Shown here: piece by piece, positions 7,889-15,247 of the stretch
How positions within the stretch are numbered: the stretch's first letter is position 1
Layout of the letters: each line of letters starts with the position of its first letter
Source of the DNA: Chromatiales bacterium
GTDB taxonomy: Bacteria; Pseudomonadota; Gammaproteobacteria; Steroidobacterales; GCA-2729495
Reading direction: 5' to 3'
Length of the DNA: 36,727 nucleotides
Assembly: GCA_018699155.1 (NCBI GenBank)
Contig: JABIQA010000103.1
Span: 1-36,727 of the forward strand
Made by a program: the position numbers and the translations under genes
The notes under the pieces: model-generated
What the model saw: the letters and a program-made list of their open reading frames with translations, nothing else
Database searches by the model: none
Told to the model about the DNA's origin: nothing

Positions 7889-8905
7889 TTAGCCACCACT
7901 TAACGCGGGAACAATATGCTTGCCGATGGTTCGAATTGCAGCATCAGCATTCCCATAAACCTTTAATGCAATCTGGGTCAATCCAGCGCGCTTAAACTCT
8001 CTGAACCGTTCTACTTCCCTGTCAATATTATCAAGCGATGATGCGGAGGTGCCTCGATCTACTATTTTAGTCAAAATATTGTCGGGCACCTTCTTGATAT
8101 CAGGACTGCGATTATAAAATGCTTTTGCAAATTCACTGATGTTATCCGTCACGATTTTAGCTTCATCCTCATTGACAACATCACGAATATAATCCGGGTA
8201 TATCGTGCCGCGGACACACAACCAAATACGAGCCTCACGCTGCGCTTCTTCGGCACTGTCTTTAACATGCCAGGCCCAAAAATTATTTAGCGGATAGGTT
8301 TGCGGACTAAGGTCACGCTGCTGCAGAACAGGATCTATGATTTCATGCGCCCAACGGACTCTGTCGGGCGTAAAGTCGCTGAACATGATGCCCTGCGCAT
8401 AGGCCGCTGCCGATTTCAACATTTTAGGCCCGTTCGCACCAACGAACACCATGGGCGGTGCCTGCGTTACCCAGCGTGTATCCATCCAACTTACCGGATA
8501 AAGCTCACCCTCGTATTTTCCGGGCACGCCGCTGGCCGCTCGAGAAATCAATTCGGCGCATTCTCTGACTGCACGAATCATGCGTTTTGGTTTTTTACCC
8601 ATAGCATCTGCGGTACCACCACCAGCGCCAATAACTATCTGCGCCCTGCCCTTGGCTATCTCATTCAAGCTTAACAGCGACACCGCCATTTTTAATGGGT
8701 GCAATTCGAATGGGCTAACGGCAATCGGCCCCATCGCGATGCGCTCTGTCTGCGTGGCCAGTGGCGTGAAATTAACAAACGCATCTCTGCCATTCGCATT
8801 GTTGGCCACCCAAACACCACCCAGGCCAACAGACTCAGCCAACTTGCCCAGCTCAAGCCACCTCTCTACGGGCTTGTCCGATTCAATAATGACGTCAATA
8901 CGCAA
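7889..8905 (-). CDS. LLM-class (luciferase-like) flavin/F420-dependent oxidoreductase
   Basis: A 338-residue TIM-barrel protein of the bacterial-luciferase superfamily. Typical features are the N-terminal LAESVGLGGVWVAN segment, ATQTERIAMGPIAVSPFELHPLKMAVSLLSLNEIAKGRAQIVIGAG-type strands (residues about 51-96), and PPMVFVGANGPKMLKSAA near 150-167. The pattern resembles F420-dependent reductases such as methylene-H4MPT reductase homologues, but FMN-dependent members look similar, so the cofactor is uncertain. The start is a TTG at 8905, preceded by a GAGAGA ribosome site; no in-frame ATG fits. A Ddn-like putative deazaflavin enzyme lies 6 kb away. Confidence 0.8.
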   Translation of the reverse strand: MRIDVIIESDKPVERWLELGKLAESVGLGGVWVANNANGRDAFVNFTPLATQTERIAMGPIAVSPFELHPLKMAVSLLSLNEIAKGRAQIVIGAGGGTADAMGKKPKRMIRAVRECAELISRAASGVPGKYEGELYPVSWMDTRWVTQAPPMVFVGANGPKMLKSAAAYAQGIMFSDFTPDRVRWAHEIIDPVLQQRDLSPQTYPLNNFWAWHVKDSAEEAQREARIWLCVRGTIYPDYIRDVVNEDEAKIVTDNISEFAKAFYNRSPDIKKVPDNILTKIVDRGTSASSLDNIDREVERFREFKRAGLTQIALKVYGNADAAIRTIGKHIVPALSGG

Positions 8906-8999: not shown

Positions 9000-10052
9000 C
9001 TAAGTCGATGACAGCCATGGCTTAACCAACTGCGCAGACACATTCCACAGCTTTAATGCTAAGGCCTCGTTTTCCGCATGCGGACCTGTCATCGCTGAAG
9101 GATTACAGTCTTCAAAGTAGTAACCGGTAACGCCAGCCAAACGGGAATCTATGGCCACGTAAACCTGAGTGGCCGCACCCTGAGCAGGGTTTTTAAACCC
9201 TTTACGCAGAGGCTTATTCGGATCACGGGGTTTGCTGGACATATAGCGGCCCAGATTGGTCGCCACAATGCCGGGATGCACTGAGTTTGAGGTCAGCCCC
9301 GTATTGGCATAGCGACGCGCAACTTCATCGGCAAACAATGCATTCGAAAGCTTGGTCTGACCGTACGCCGAAAACGACTTGTACTTTACTGCAGCCGAGA
9401 GATTGTCAAACTGAATACCTTCAGCGGGTGCCAACGAATAACCCGTGCTGGATAGCATCACCACTCTGCCTGCGGCGGCCTCTACCTGCGGCAGCAGATT
9501 TCGGGTCAGCAGGTAATGCCCCAAATGATTGACCACGAATTGTTTTTCAAGGGTTACACCATTGACATCCACCTGTTCCAACTTAGGCAGCGCCATAATA
9601 CCGGCATTGCACATGAGCACGTCAAGATGCTTATTACTTTTATTAAGCAGCTCATCTGTGGCAATGGCGCATGCCGCTACTGAATCCATATCGGTGAGTT
9701 CACACACCAACGGTGTCGTTTGCCCCTCAACACTACTGCAGGCTTGCTGTGCCTTTTCCAGCGTGCGTGCGGTACCGATCACATGCGCCCCCCGGCTGGC
9801 GAGTGTGCGCATCGATTCATAACCCAAGCCTGAGTTGCAACCGGTAATGAGTATTGTCTTGCCGGAGAGATCGTATCCGGCTGCCACGTCATCGCAGGTC
9901 GTCGCAAAGCCGTAATCGCTGCGCGGAACCTCACTGATTAACGCCGGATTCGGACTCCGCCCGCGGGATGTCGCACAGCCTGGTAGCAGTGCGGCAATGG
10001 CTAAAGCTGAGCCTCCCTGAAGCAATAAACGACGATCAACACGTAAGGTCAT
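9000..10052 (-). CDS. SDR oxidoreductase with Tat-like lipoprotein signal
   Basis: A 350-residue short-chain dehydrogenase with an unusual N-terminus. It begins MTLRVDRRLLLQGGSALA, a twin-arginine-like n-region and hydrophobic core, and ends in a lipobox-like LLPGC. The Rossmann domain follows: TGCNSGLGYE nucleotide loop (about 70-79), the CNAGIM motif near 145, and catalytic YGQTK near 234. Closest in style are retinol-dehydrogenase or protochlorophyllide-reductase-like SDRs. Export by Tat would deliver a folded, cofactor-loaded enzyme to the periplasm, which is rare for SDRs. The frame is open upstream to 10109, but an AGGAATA ribosome site favours the ATG at 10052. The substrate is unknown. 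Confidence 0.85.
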   Translation of the reverse strand: MTLRVDRRLLLQGGSALAIAALLPGCATSRGRSPNPALISEVPRSDYGFATTCDDVAAGYDLSGKTILITGCNSGLGYESMRTLASRGAHVIGTARTLEKAQQACSSVEGQTTPLVCELTDMDSVAACAIATDELLNKSNKHLDVLMCNAGIMALPKLEQVDVNGVTLEKQFVVNHLGHYLLTRNLLPQVEAAAGRVVMLSSTGYSLAPAEGIQFDNLSAAVKYKSFSAYGQTKLSNALFADEVARRYANTGLTSNSVHPGIVATNLGRYMSSKPRDPNKPLRKGFKNPAQGAATQVYVAIDSRLAGVTGYYFEDCNPSAMTGPHAENEALALKLWNVSAQLVKPWLSST

Positions 10053-10304
10053 ATCAGTATTCCTTATTGGGTTTTTCATGAGATAAGCGAACTTAAGGGC
10101 TGCCCGCAAGCTGTGTTCCTGATAACAGCCACTCTACGTCAGGCAACCGCTATGCTGCAGGTTCTATACGCATGGGTGACCGCAGATAGACCGACCGCAG
10201 CGTGACCGGTCGCGGAATGAGAGACAAGCGCTAAGATCAGCCTAATGCTTAACTGCCGTGCCGGCAATGTGCCTTTAGCCTCCGGCGCTATCAAGGAGTT
10301 TAGT

Positions 10305-11339
10305 TTGCTTAAGTTTGTGACAATTTCGGGTTCGCTGATTCTGGTTGTGATTCTGCTTGCTGCCGCACTCGGCTTCTACAATGATTACGATGTGCAGCAG
10401 CGCGCCGCGGTTAAACCGGAAGATCCAAACGTGTTGGTGCTGCGCACCCCCGAATCGCGGTTTACCGTACTTACCGATTTTCCCTTCGAACCCCACTACA
10501 TCAGTATTGACGATCCGGAACTGGGTACGCTGCGAATTCACTACCTCGATGAAGGCCCTAGGGATGGCGAAGTCATACTTTTATTGCACGGTCAGGCCAC
10601 GTGGAGTTATTCGTTTCGTAAGATGATTCCCATTCTCACAGCGGCGGGTTACCGCGTTGTAGTGCCCGACATGGTCGGCTTCGGACGTTCCGATAAACCT
10701 GCCGACTGGAACGCTCACAGCTTTCAAAAGCAAGTCGACTGGCTTGATGCCACACTCGAACAATTGGATATCTATAACTGCAACGCCTTTTTATTCGACT
10801 GGGGCGGCTACTTCGCCTTGCGCCTGCTTGCCGAAGATCCGCAACTCTTTTCCCGGCTGATGCTGGTAACAACCACGATGCCTAGGGCCGACAGCATTGC
10901 CGGTGCCGTCTGGATTGCCGGCTGGCGACGCTATATCTATGGGCCGGAAGAGTTCCCGATCAGCGGCATGGTCAGCGATATGACCGGCACCGATATGGAC
11001 ACAATTACGTTGGCTGGGCTCGATGCGCCCTACCTCAATGAATCCTATAAGGCCGGACCAAAACGGATGCCCATGATGATTCCCGCCACACCGCTTCACC
11101 AAGCTGCCGGACCCAATCAGGAAGCTTGGAAGAAACTCAAAGGCTGGGATGGCCCTGCCATTACTATGCTGGCTCAATCAATTTCCGAGCGTGGCTTTAA
11201 TCCTCAGGATTTTTACAACCAAATGCCTGGTACAGCAGATCAAGCCCACAAAATTTATCCGGGCATGGGCTTTTTTCTTATCGAAGACGTTCCCGAGGAA
11301 CTCGCTGAAGCGACAGTCGAGTTTATTCAGGCTAACTGA
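10305..11339 (+). CDS. Membrane-anchored haloalkane-dehalogenase-like alpha/beta hydrolase with altered triad
   Basis: A 344-residue alpha/beta hydrolase with one N-terminal hydrophobic anchor (about 5-24). The haloalkane dehalogenase pattern is clear: HGQATWSYSFRKMIP (95-109), VGFGRSDKP (124-132), the nucleophile elbow FDWGG (164-168, Asp165 and Trp166) and the cap-region DAPYLNESYKAG (240-251). At the C-terminus, where the family has GHF with the catalytic histidine, this protein reads MGFFLIED (321-328) with Phe at the His position. The usual acid-containing DSDP stretch is replaced by AQSISER. The TTG at 10305 is chosen because AAGGAG lies 6 nt upstream; an ATG at 10245 is an alternative. 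Function may be non-catalytic or altered. Confidence 0.8.
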   Translation: MLKFVTISGSLILVVILLAAALGFYNDYDVQQRAAVKPEDPNVLVLRTPESRFTVLTDFPFEPHYISIDDPELGTLRIHYLDEGPRDGEVILLLHGQATWSYSFRKMIPILTAAGYRVVVPDMVGFGRSDKPADWNAHSFQKQVDWLDATLEQLDIYNCNAFLFDWGGYFALRLLAEDPQLFSRLMLVTTTMPRADSIAGAVWIAGWRRYIYGPEEFPISGMVSDMTGTDMDTITLAGLDAPYLNESYKAGPKRMPMMIPATPLHQAAGPNQEAWKKLKGWDGPAITMLAQSISERGFNPQDFYNQMPGTADQAHKIYPGMGFFLIEDVPEELAEATVEFIQAN

Positions 11340-12221: not shown

Positions 12222-13508
12222 TCAAATATCTGCAGCGAGACGAATACCAGAGCACTGCCAACGATCGCGAGGATAAAAAAAATTGCGATAACTTGAACGA
12301 ATATGAAACGCTTGACTTAGACATGAGCCACCGCGCAATACCATCTGACCATTCATAAACTTACCATTGTATTCACCCACGGTACCCGACAAGGGTTTAT
12401 AGCCAGGATAAGGAAGGTACGCGCTTTGGGTCCATTCCCAACAGTCACCATATAACTGATCAATCTTACCGCCAATATCACGACATGGTTGCGGATGTAA
12501 GCGACCTGTATCAGCCAAATTACCAGCGACGTTTTGCTGCTGAGCCACGCTTTCCCACTCCGCTTCGGTAGGCAGTCGCTTGCCTGCCCAAACCGCATAC
12601 GCTTGAGCCTCGAAATAACTTAGGTGGCTAACTGGGATTGACTCATCGAGGTTTTGCAAACCATCAAGCGTATATTCGAGCCACTGACCATCGAGATAAC
12701 CCCAGTACAATGGAAACTTCCAATTACTCTGCTGCACTTCGTGCCAGCCGTCTGCCAACCAATAATCTGGGTTCTCATAGCCGCCATCGGCAACAAACTC
12801 CAGATATTCGCCACTCGTCACCAAACGATCGGCAAATTTAAAAGGTGCGAGATATTCGATATGCCGTGGCTGTTCATTATCAAAACAAAACGCATTCTTG
12901 TAATGACCCGTTTCAAGCTTGCCGCCCTCACAGAGAATAAACTTCAAAGGCGCAATCTTACTATTCGGAATCGTAGCATCGACTTGCTGCCGATAAGCTG
13001 GAAATAAAGGGCTCTGAAACAGGTTGTATTTTACATCTGTAAGAATAAGTTCTTGATGTTGTGCCTCATGATGCAAGCCAAGTTCGATACGCTGATGAAT
13101 AAGGTCAATTTTTGGATGATCAACCTGACTCAATAAGTCAATAATCGAAGCATTCACAATTTCGCGATACTCGAACACCTCTGCCAATGTCGGGCGAGAC
13201 AATAGTGCCCGCTCTGCTCGGGGAAACTGTTCGCCAATACCGTTGTAATAAGAATTAAATAGCACTTCATACAGGGGATTAAGCGGCACATAATCCGAAC
13301 TGTATTCGCCCAGCACGAAAGTTTCAAAAAACCAGGTGGTATGAGCGAGATGCCATTTGGCAGGACTCGTTTCAGGCATCGCCTGCAAGTTGCAGTCCTC
13401 AGGTGTGAGCGTTGAGCACAGAGACACACTGGACTCTCGCAGCGCCATAAAAGTCCCAGCTATGGTTTCGGATTGTTGTGAAGCGAGGTCTATAGTATTA
13501 GATTTCAT
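12222..13508 (-). CDS. egtB: Ergothioneine-type sulfoxide synthase EgtB
   Basis: A 428-residue non-heme iron enzyme. The N-terminal DinB-like domain holds the iron ligands: WHLAHTTWFFE with His56, and H-x3-H-x-E (His147, His151, Glu153). The C-terminal sulfatase-modifying-factor fold (about 190-428) shows AVWAGKRLPTEAEWE, GDCWEWTQSAY and the RGGSC near the end. EgtB joins a sulfur donor to hercynine, using oxygen, to make the sulfoxide precursor of ergothioneine. The ATG at 13508 is 5 nt after the stop of the PhzF-like gene, indicating one operon. The usual partner egtD is reduced to a fragment just downstream, so hercynine must come from elsewhere or the substrate differs. Confidence 0.9.
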   Translation of the reverse strand: MKSNTIDLASQQSETIAGTFMALRESSVSLCSTLTPEDCNLQAMPETSPAKWHLAHTTWFFETFVLGEYSSDYVPLNPLYEVLFNSYYNGIGEQFPRAERALLSRPTLAEVFEYREIVNASIIDLLSQVDHPKIDLIHQRIELGLHHEAQHQELILTDVKYNLFQSPLFPAYRQQVDATIPNSKIAPLKFILCEGGKLETGHYKNAFCFDNEQPRHIEYLAPFKFADRLVTSGEYLEFVADGGYENPDYWLADGWHEVQQSNWKFPLYWGYLDGQWLEYTLDGLQNLDESIPVSHLSYFEAQAYAVWAGKRLPTEAEWESVAQQQNVAGNLADTGRLHPQPCRDIGGKIDQLYGDCWEWTQSAYLPYPGYKPLSGTVGEYNGKFMNGQMVLRGGSCLSQAFHIRSSYRNFFYPRDRWQCSGIRLAADI

Positions 13509-13513
13509 GGTGC

Positions 13514-14365
13514 TCAACGATACTCGACCCGTGCCGTCAAATCGACTGAATCCACATCGCAACCAAGCTGCAGCCATGCGCCCTTTACTGACAGCTGCAG
13601 AGCATTGAATCGCTTCCGTTGCAAACGAGACGACCAGTAAGCTGCCAACTGCACTGCTGCGGAGCCGGTTGCGGCATCCTCCGGCGAACCGTACTGCGGC
13701 GCGAAGTAGCGAAACACAATGGTAGAACTACCACCAACAGCATCACTAGAACCGTCTGCACCCTTAGACTTTGCCGTAACGATGAGAGCCCGCTGAGTCG
13801 CTACAATTAACGCGCCGAAATCGGGCTGCAAGGCTTTAAGCGCAGAACTATCTGCCAATTCCAATACTAGATAACTCGAATCACCGCCAACCGTTGCAGC
13901 AGCGATAGGTTCTACGTCGAGTATGGCCGCAGTGAATTCCGGCACGGGGCACTCTACCGGTGACGGCTTGCTATAGGTAAGAGTGACTTCGGAAACACCA
14001 TTGGCTGAACCTGCAGAAGCCAATCGCGCCTGCCAGTTTTGCTCTGCGTTTGAGAACTCAAGCACCGTTTCATCTTCTGTATCTGCTGCGAGCTGATCGA
14101 ACACCACATGTGCCGCGGCGAGCGCTCCAAGACCACAAAACTGTATGCGCTTGCCATCGGAGTTAAAGCTTTCGGCAACATAGTGCGTGCCATCACCTGC
14201 AACAAATACCTGCGTGTTATCACACGTGGCATCGCCCGCAAAAAACACCTCGGCGCTCGACAGTAGTTCGGTACCGGAAATACCCTCGATAAAATGCACA
14301 TTGGCCAGCCCCCCACTATGAGGGTTCAGATTGTGCATACAACGCACTAGTCGCTGCTCAGTCAT
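13514..14365 (-). CDS. PhzF-like isomerase-family protein
   Basis: A 283-residue member of the PhzF/diaminopimelate-epimerase-like fold. Diagnostic stretches are IQFCGLGALAAAHVVF (about 74-89), where PhzF proteins have CGHATLAAA, and FRYFAPQYGSPEDAATGSA in the C-terminal half. The N-terminus is divergent: at the place of the SETTFV-type motif with the catalytic glutamate, the sequence reads NTQVFV, so the glutamate appears to be replaced. It sits between a short DUF427 gene (17 nt gap) and egtB (5 nt gap), so it is very likely part of the same operon. A role in metabolising a histidine- or thiol-derived compound is inference. Confidence 0.8.
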   Translation of the reverse strand: MTEQRLVRCMHNLNPHSGGLANVHFIEGISGTELLSSAEVFFAGDATCDNTQVFVAGDGTHYVAESFNSDGKRIQFCGLGALAAAHVVFDQLAADTEDETVLEFSNAEQNWQARLASAGSANGVSEVTLTYSKPSPVECPVPEFTAAILDVEPIAAATVGGDSSYLVLELADSSALKALQPDFGALIVATQRALIVTAKSKGADGSSDAVGGSSTIVFRYFAPQYGSPEDAATGSAAVQLAAYWSSRLQRKRFNALQLSVKGAWLQLGCDVDSVDLTARVEYR

Positions 14366-14797: not shown

Positions 14798-15247
14798 CTA
14801 AGCCTCAACAGCCTCAACGACGATGGCTTTTGTCACTGCTAGCTCAAGGTCCTGTGCATTTAAAGACTTGTTTTTGTCTAGGCGAATCTCATGATATGCA
14901 GCATCCTCTGGAAACAACGAAAGATAAGAAACCAATTGCTCTTTTATATAGACAGGGTTATCAAATATCGCCTTTGCATCATATTCAGCAGATTGACGTT
15001 TTATCAGCAAGCTAACTCTGGCGCCCTCACGGAGATTCCTCCACCACTGATTTTCAGCCGCAGTAAAACACCTCACAGTATCACCCTTCTGGATGTAGCG
15101 AACCGGCGTCGTAAAACGCTTGCCACTTTTCCTGCCGGTAAAGGTGATAAGCATCAGACTGTCGCTCAACACACTATGAAAAGGAGATCTCAGCAAAAAT
15201 TTCATCATTGGATTAATGATCTTGAATAACCACTCAGGGAGTTTCAC
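14798..15247 (-). CDS. Ddn-like deazaflavin (F420)-dependent nitroreductase family protein
   Basis: A 149-residue split-barrel protein of the F420H2-dependent quinone/nitroreductase (Ddn) family. The diagnostic region is LMLITFTGRKSGKRFTTPVRY (about 31-51), followed by RCFTAAENQWWRNLREGARVSLLI. In actinobacteria such proteins use F420H2 to reduce quinones or nitro compounds. In a gammaproteobacterium the cofactor may be F420, but FMN or heme-binding relatives exist, so this is not certain. The start codon is GTG at 15247; no in-frame ATG is better placed. It lies upstream of the DUF427-PhzF-EgtB operon on the same strand, separated by 133 nt. Confidence 0.8.
   Translation of the reverse strand: MKLPEWLFKIINPMMKFLLRSPFHSVLSDSLMLITFTGRKSGKRFTTPVRYIQKGDTVRCFTAAENQWWRNLREGARVSLLIKRQSAEYDAKAIFDNPVYIKEQLVSYLSLFPEDAAYHEIRLDKNKSLNAQDLELAVTKAIVVEAVEA

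Follow-up and report, generated by a model that had tools for sequence, protein, structure and literature searches.

A protein that resembles a haloalkane dehalogenase (HLD) but lacks the catalytic histidine raises the question of which part of the dehalogenase reaction, if any, it can still perform. Such a protein is encoded at positions 10305–11339 of a 36,727-nucleotide stretch of DNA from a Chromatiales bacterium (contig JABIQA010000103.1 of assembly GCA_018699155.1), hereafter called the window. An initial annotation had described it as a membrane-anchored dehalogenase-like protein with a missing histidine, and had suggested a pseudoenzyme, a binder, or trapped-ester chemistry. Here, we show that the protein belongs to a clade that has lost the histidine base, the acid at the catalytic column (in two of its three subgroups, A and B), and the strict HG-x-P loop, and in which the nucleophile Asp and both residues of the Trp pair have been retained under purifying selection. 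We tentatively favor the reading that it is a non-hydrolytic dehalogenase derivative that may capture a ligand via Asp165, possibly as a covalent ester. The features of the locus are collected in Table 1.

The window protein is a close relative of the subfamily-I haloalkane dehalogenases (HLD-I). It scored 304 bits against the NCBIfam model NF002043 (“haloalkane dehalogenase”), for which the cut-off is 265, and its structure model, built with 64 aligned sequences as input, had a mean pLDDT of 94.5 and a pTM of 0.91 and displayed the HLD-I fold with a helical cap. When this model was submitted to Foldseek, HLD-I enzymes ranked first, with target-normalized TM-scores of 0.95 for DmrA (4mj3) and 0.92 for DpcA (6f9o). 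These two are also the best solved relatives by sequence, and the identities in the Foldseek alignments were 40 and 41%, respectively. The N-terminal membrane anchor proposed earlier is supported: residues 2–34 were modeled as a single helix, with a maximum 19-residue Kyte–Doolittle mean of 2.66. From its N-terminal signal-anchor pattern, in which the charge bias is weak, the protein is probably anchored in the inner membrane and probably faces the periplasm.

Residue counts were based on 31 non-duplicate clade rows and 73 canonical rows. Four near-duplicates (loci L065, L006, L007, and L092) were removed before counting, as were rows that were partial, duplicate, X-holding, or too distant (the two pieces of L062, L064, L030, L139, L052, L055, L058, L060, L061, and the 6f9o reference); the His column held Phe in the four near-duplicates and His in 10 of the 11 others, with a gap in one L062 piece. 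Alignment with 6f9o and 4mj3 confirmed three readings of the initial annotation, namely the intact nucleophile elbow DWGG with Asp165, the Phe at the His position in MGFFLIED, and AQSISER at the DSDP stretch. Asp165 and Trp166 were each present in 31/31 clade rows and 73/73 canonical rows, and because Trp207, which is presumably equivalent to W175 of DhlA, was also invariant in the clade, both members of the halide-stabilizing Trp–Trp pair of HLD-I are in place. W100 was likewise kept in 31/31 rows. Position 323, however, was Phe in all 31 clade rows versus His in all 73 canonical rows, so the catalytic base is missing. The second Asp of DSDP, which we take to match D260 of DhlA, falls on Ile293 of the window protein; in this catalytic-acid column, an acid occurred only in subclade C (Asp in 3/31 clade rows, Glu in 1/31), versus Asp in 71/73 canonical rows.

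The earlier statement that the other HLD motifs are intact holds only in part: in the nucleophile surroundings, HGE has become HGQ and QDWGG has become FDWGG. The residue before the nucleophile, Gln in the canonical form, is Phe164 in the window protein and Phe or Leu across the clade. The HG-x-P loop is relaxed: H95 and G96 were each found in 24/31 clade rows versus 73/73 canonical rows, and P98 in 0/31 versus 73/73. In total, 25 of the 42 columns that were conserved at ≥ 95% in the canonical rows remain so in the clade. Other positions have become fixed, i.e., F170, W203, M222, and F323, each in 31/31 clade rows and in ≤ 5% of the canonical rows, together with R208 and P252 (31/31 each) and R254 (29/31). 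Among the 31 rows, we found no likely non-ancestral replacement base that was conserved across the clade.

The initial annotation treated the loss as that of a single protein. The loss is real, but it is a trait of the whole clade. A second, soluble copy in the same genome (94% complete), at G000:C164:24321-25178, carries the same losses, and these two copies are the only proteins of this genome that pass the NF002043 cut-off. In the bacterial family, searched at an E-value of 1e-60 and then 1e-80, matches were found in 23 of 40 genomes and 32 places in total, with 17 genomes having none at these thresholds. The homologue survey that had been suggested gave a uniform result, as in all 32 places the His was replaced by Phe and the nucleophile motif read FDWG or LDWG; all 29 members of set A1 matched NF002043 at an E-value of 0.001 or better. 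In a tree of 111 rows, the 31 clade rows lay behind one branch (support 100/99) with one change of state, in 100% of 200 bootstrap trees. Loss of the His was not found outside the family in overlapping samples of 396 genomes of the order, 369 of the class, and 398 of the phylum. The lowest-scoring family member reached 391.6 bits with a clade profile versus 361.4 bits for the best outsider, and the best non-family scores were 354 (order), 361 (class), and 360 bits (phylum). The 28 outsiders that were read residue by residue (25 order loci and 3 from the class and phylum) all keep the His; matches occurred in 89 non-family genomes of the order, 64 of which were judged by score alone. The proteins thus form a single-origin clade of HLD-I homologues, and in the genome samples covered they occurred only in this bacterial family.

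The clade comprises three subgroups: A (11 rows, including the window protein), B (16 rows), and C (4 rows). All 11 rows of A have the membrane helix. For B and C, the upstream frames of 18 rows (all 20 except L134 and L135) contained no comparable anchor, and the 19-residue maximum there was ≤ 1.52; five of the frames were too short, including that of L084, which is cut by the contig end. Subclades B and C therefore look soluble, and the anchor is not tied to the catalytic loss. In L080 of subclade B, a lipobox-like hydrophobic stretch lies upstream of the chosen start (2400, − strand); this start is unsure, and a lipoprotein version is possible. In subclade A, the conservation of the juxtamembrane motif NxYDVQ exceeds what would be expected of a plain linker.

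The codon for Phe323 was TTT or TTC in all 29 rows examined, and the Phe-Phe pair of the subclade A orthologues was written TTT TTT, TTT TTC, or TTC TTC. Pairwise Nei–Gojobori dN/dS values were 0.08–0.25 in 12 of 13 pairs, and the remaining pair (L081/L083) was saturated. There were no internal stops within the 32 homologue matches.

In the HLD reaction, Asp first displaces the halide to form an alkyl-enzyme ester, and the His–acid pair then serves its hydrolysis (PMC6100074); the catalytic pentad is defined in PMC6920932. The features that serve ester hydrolysis have been lost or relaxed in the clade, and those of the alkylation step are invariant, and on this basis we favor Asp165-based capture; the grouping of the residues into a first and a second step was made after the data were seen. 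Under this reading, Asp165 would still engage a hydrophobic ligand, in a pocket that appears to have been rebuilt with the aromatics F170, W203, W207, and F323. The first half-reaction alone would take place, with Asp165 displacing a leaving group held by W166 and W207, and the resulting alkyl-enzyme ester would not be hydrolyzed at a useful rate. The protein would then serve as a sensor or covalent trap and be nature's equivalent of HaloTag, and the window version would play this role while tethered to the inner membrane.

The known systems provide both parallels and differences. The clade shares with the HLD-I enzymes (DpcA 6f9o, DmrA 4mj3, DccA 5esr, and DhlA) the fold, the cap domain, the RTP...FP.PHY N-terminal signature, the nucleophile Asp, and the Trp pair, but differs in having no catalytic His, no column acid (A and B), Gln97, Phe/Leu164, and the new W203, F170, M222, and R254, and the window copy differs further in its membrane anchor. 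When the His of DhaA is replaced by Phe, hydrolysis is prevented and a stable ester remains, which is the basis of HaloTag (PMC12118198, PMC10586770, and PMC13376172). The residue pattern of HaloTag (DhaA H272F), in which the Asp is kept and the His becomes Phe, is that of the clade; here, however, the change is natural, occurs in subfamily I, and is accompanied by an altered acid column. HaloTag itself is an engineered subfamily-II protein in which the acid is kept. Natural departures from the pentad are also seen in DmxA (5mxp) and DatA, which have an odd halide-stabilizing residue (Q40 in DmxA); unlike the clade, DmxA keeps its triad of D105, E129, and H273 (PMC6920932).

Several points weigh against Asp165-based capture. 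The residues around the nucleophile have themselves changed (Glu to Gln97, Gln to Phe/Leu164, and a broken HG motif in 7/31 rows), which may compromise even the first half-reaction; the Gln that replaces the usual halide-stabilizing Asn in DmxA is reported to be unable to stabilize the halide (PMC6920932). Asp165 could instead have been kept for structure or hydrogen bonding, and a single-turnover protein would be costly unless it were a sensor. In subclade C, column 293 still carries an acid (Asp in 3 and Glu in 1 of 4 rows), and acids lie two positions before or after this column in subclade A (Glu291 in 5/11 rows and Glu295 in 5/11, with Gln291 and Glu295 in the window protein). H138 of subclades A and C is a candidate base, and no pointer to an organohalogen was found in the gene contexts read. 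Nevertheless, we rank Asp165-based capture above a non-covalent binder, which is followed by a water-independent enzyme and then by a rescued dehalogenase.

That the proteins are true pseudoenzymes that bind a ligand non-covalently is doubtful but deserves serious weight. A hydrophobic or cationic ligand would be enclosed by an aromatic cage and anchored by the charge of Asp165, and the membrane-anchored copies would be receptors or carriers. The loss of the base, the changed acid column, and the fixed aromatics F170, W203, W207, F323, and F/L164, all under purifying selection, fit this explanation, although that these aromatics line one pocket is our inference, and so does the anchored subclade A with its invariant juxtamembrane motif. 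On the other hand, the full leaving-group set of Asp, W166, and W207 is invariant in 31/31 rows, which is beyond the needs of binding alone, and pseudoenzymes of the hydrolase fold usually lose the nucleophile. Of the interpretation first offered for the window protein, the loss of base and acid stands, and a plain degenerate pseudoenzyme is countered by these invariant residues.

It is unlikely that the clade consists of enzymes that need no water, in which Asp165 would form an ester or act as a base and the product would leave by elimination, decarboxylation, rearrangement, or transfer to another nucleophile, making the His unnecessary. OleB, a β-lactone decarboxylase of HLD-III, is a precedent for other chemistry in an HLD-type active site; however, the aligned HLD-III members, including OleB, belong to another subfamily and keep the pentad. 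The Asp-His-Asp plus Asn-Trp pentad of the OleB type is not present here, where the His and the column acid are missing and position 97 is Gln. Pathway roles are suggested by two contexts, since a c-type cytochrome gene precedes the B gene in seven loci, with cytochrome c′ and an intact α/β hydrolase nearby in several, and in three loci the subclade A gene adjoins that of a short-chain dehydrogenase/reductase (SDR) that appears to carry a signal peptide. Yet the contexts of A and B differ and hint at no substrate, and no new catalytic group has appeared across the clade in place of the base.

Only a very small chance is left for a haloalkane dehalogenase that is still hydrolytic and in which H138 (in subclade A) or H315 supplies the base, even though both copies in the genome exceed the NF002043 cut-off. 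An alternative His near Asp165 had been named earlier as a finding that would undo the proposal; none exists clade-wide, but H138, which is new and fixed in A (11/11) and C (4/4), is still a candidate on the alignment. Subclade B, however, has Tyr at position 138 in 16/16 rows and the same F323. H315 is invariant in the clade (31/31) but ancestral (59/73 canonical rows), and in the structure model it precedes the strand at 316–318, which would place it away from the catalytic strand ends. In addition, the acid column has no acid in 27/31 rows. Finally, sequencing error or gene decay has a negligible probability although the Phe-Phe codons of the window gene sit in a six-T run, because Phe occurs in 32/32 places of 23 genomes and in both spellings, which rules out a misread TTTTTT run and hence a misread His codon, and the stop-free matches and dN/dS values well below 1 rule out a decaying gene.

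Table 1. Features of the window and of related loci (window coordinates unless a locus is named).
Feature	Coordinates	Strand	Basis and remarks
Coding sequence, membrane-anchored His-less HLD-I-like protein	10305..11339	+	Open reading frame with TTG start, 344 amino acids; profile match; alignment
AAGGAG, likely ribosome-binding site	10293..10298	+	Six bases before TTG; read directly
N-terminal helix, residues 2–34, membrane anchor	10308..10406	+	Structure model and hydropathy; residues 4–22 most hydrophobic
Juxtamembrane motif N26-x-Y28-D29-V30-Q31	10380..10397	+	Invariant in 11/11 subclade A rows
Gln97, replacing Glu of HGE	10593..10595	+	Gln in 31/31 clade rows; canonical Glu 66/73, Gln 4/73
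Asp165 (nucleophile) and Trp166 (first halide-stabilizing Trp)	10797..10802	+	Alignment; both 31/31
Trp203, clade-specific invariant, cap helix	10911..10913	+	31/31; canonical Ala 58/73
Trp207, second halide-stabilizing Trp, cap domain	10923..10925	+	31/31; canonical 68/73
AQSISER, residues 290–296, at the DSDP stretch	11172..11192	+	Ile at catalytic column 293; Glu at 295
Phe323 (TTT) at the place of the catalytic His	11271..11273	+	Alignment with 6f9o and 4mj3; clade counts
Divergent SDR with twin-Arg-like and lipobox-like N-terminus	9000..10109	−	Signal read by eye; at most a possible partner
SDRs with apparent export signals beside subclade A genes	L148 10736-11524; L150 10573-11382; L151 5460-6293		Read by eye
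Luciferase-like F420-type oxidoreductase and F420H2-quinone-reductase-like gene (paired entry, in this order)	7889-8905; 14798-15247	−	Annotation search
EgtB, ergothioneine synthase	12222-13577	−	TIGR03440, 537.8 bits (cut-off 360); adjoins a PhzF-like gene

The window gene stands between the divergent SDR and a DUF427 gene. In the subclade A loci read gene by gene (those other than L146 and L152), the contexts had little in common except for the SDR beside the gene in L148, L150, and L151; the same SDR cluster lies approximately 4.4 kb from the gene in L146 and is also present in the B locus L159. Export, as these apparent signals suggest, would be unusual for an enzyme that depends on nucleotides. 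Around the copies that look soluble, a c-type cytochrome reading frame in the same orientation was found no more than 250 bases upstream of the gene in at least 7 of the 20 B and C loci, all seven being B loci; this count is a lower bound because several loci are incomplete. Among 61 canonical loci, CxxCH-containing reading frames occurred within 1.5 kb in 3, and none was cytochrome-like by eye. In the genome studied here, the gene next to the B copy encodes a cytochrome c that carries two CxxCH motifs; genes for cytochrome c′ and an α/β hydrolase come before it. In six loci, L144 (9277-12670), L153, L154, L156, L160, and L163, the B gene adjoins the gene for a cytochrome c of one cluster, and cytochrome c′, an α/β hydrolase, and a MacB-like ABC pair recur near B genes in several loci as a conserved cluster.

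Other genes bear on the wider biology of the organism. The F420-type genes of the window and a CofD match at G000:C209:13064-13972 (299.6 bits, cut-off 257.45, although the E. coli control is also positive) suggest that the bacterium may make or use F420. Among the canonical loci, the HLD-like gene of L062 (6049-7108, a record of the OM182 clade) is split over two frames, by either a frameshift or an assembly fault.

A search of the open literature turned up no report of natural HLD homologues without the catalytic His, which is weak evidence of absence because subscription papers were mostly outside the scope of the search. Automatic annotation with NF002043 would name the clade proteins haloalkane dehalogenases despite the absence of the hydrolytic residues. 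Mining of HLDs with EnzymeMiner 2.0 screens matches for user-defined essential residues; pentad-based screening of this kind discards such sequences, which may therefore have been overlooked. Even if the clade proteins are binders, they would offer a clear natural case in which the base and the acid were lost and the nucleophile was kept. If they are traps, a hydrolase fold would have taken on an intermediate-trapping role, nature would have arrived at the HaloTag solution on its own, and the clade would provide natural self-labeling proteins with other pockets. In its boldest form, which we consider rather improbable, this reading describes a natural self-labeling family of covalent alkyl traps that arose once through the His-to-Phe change of HaloTag, in which the anchored branch would scavenge or sense alkylators, such as environmental organohalogens, and the soluble one would be connected with c-type cytochromes.
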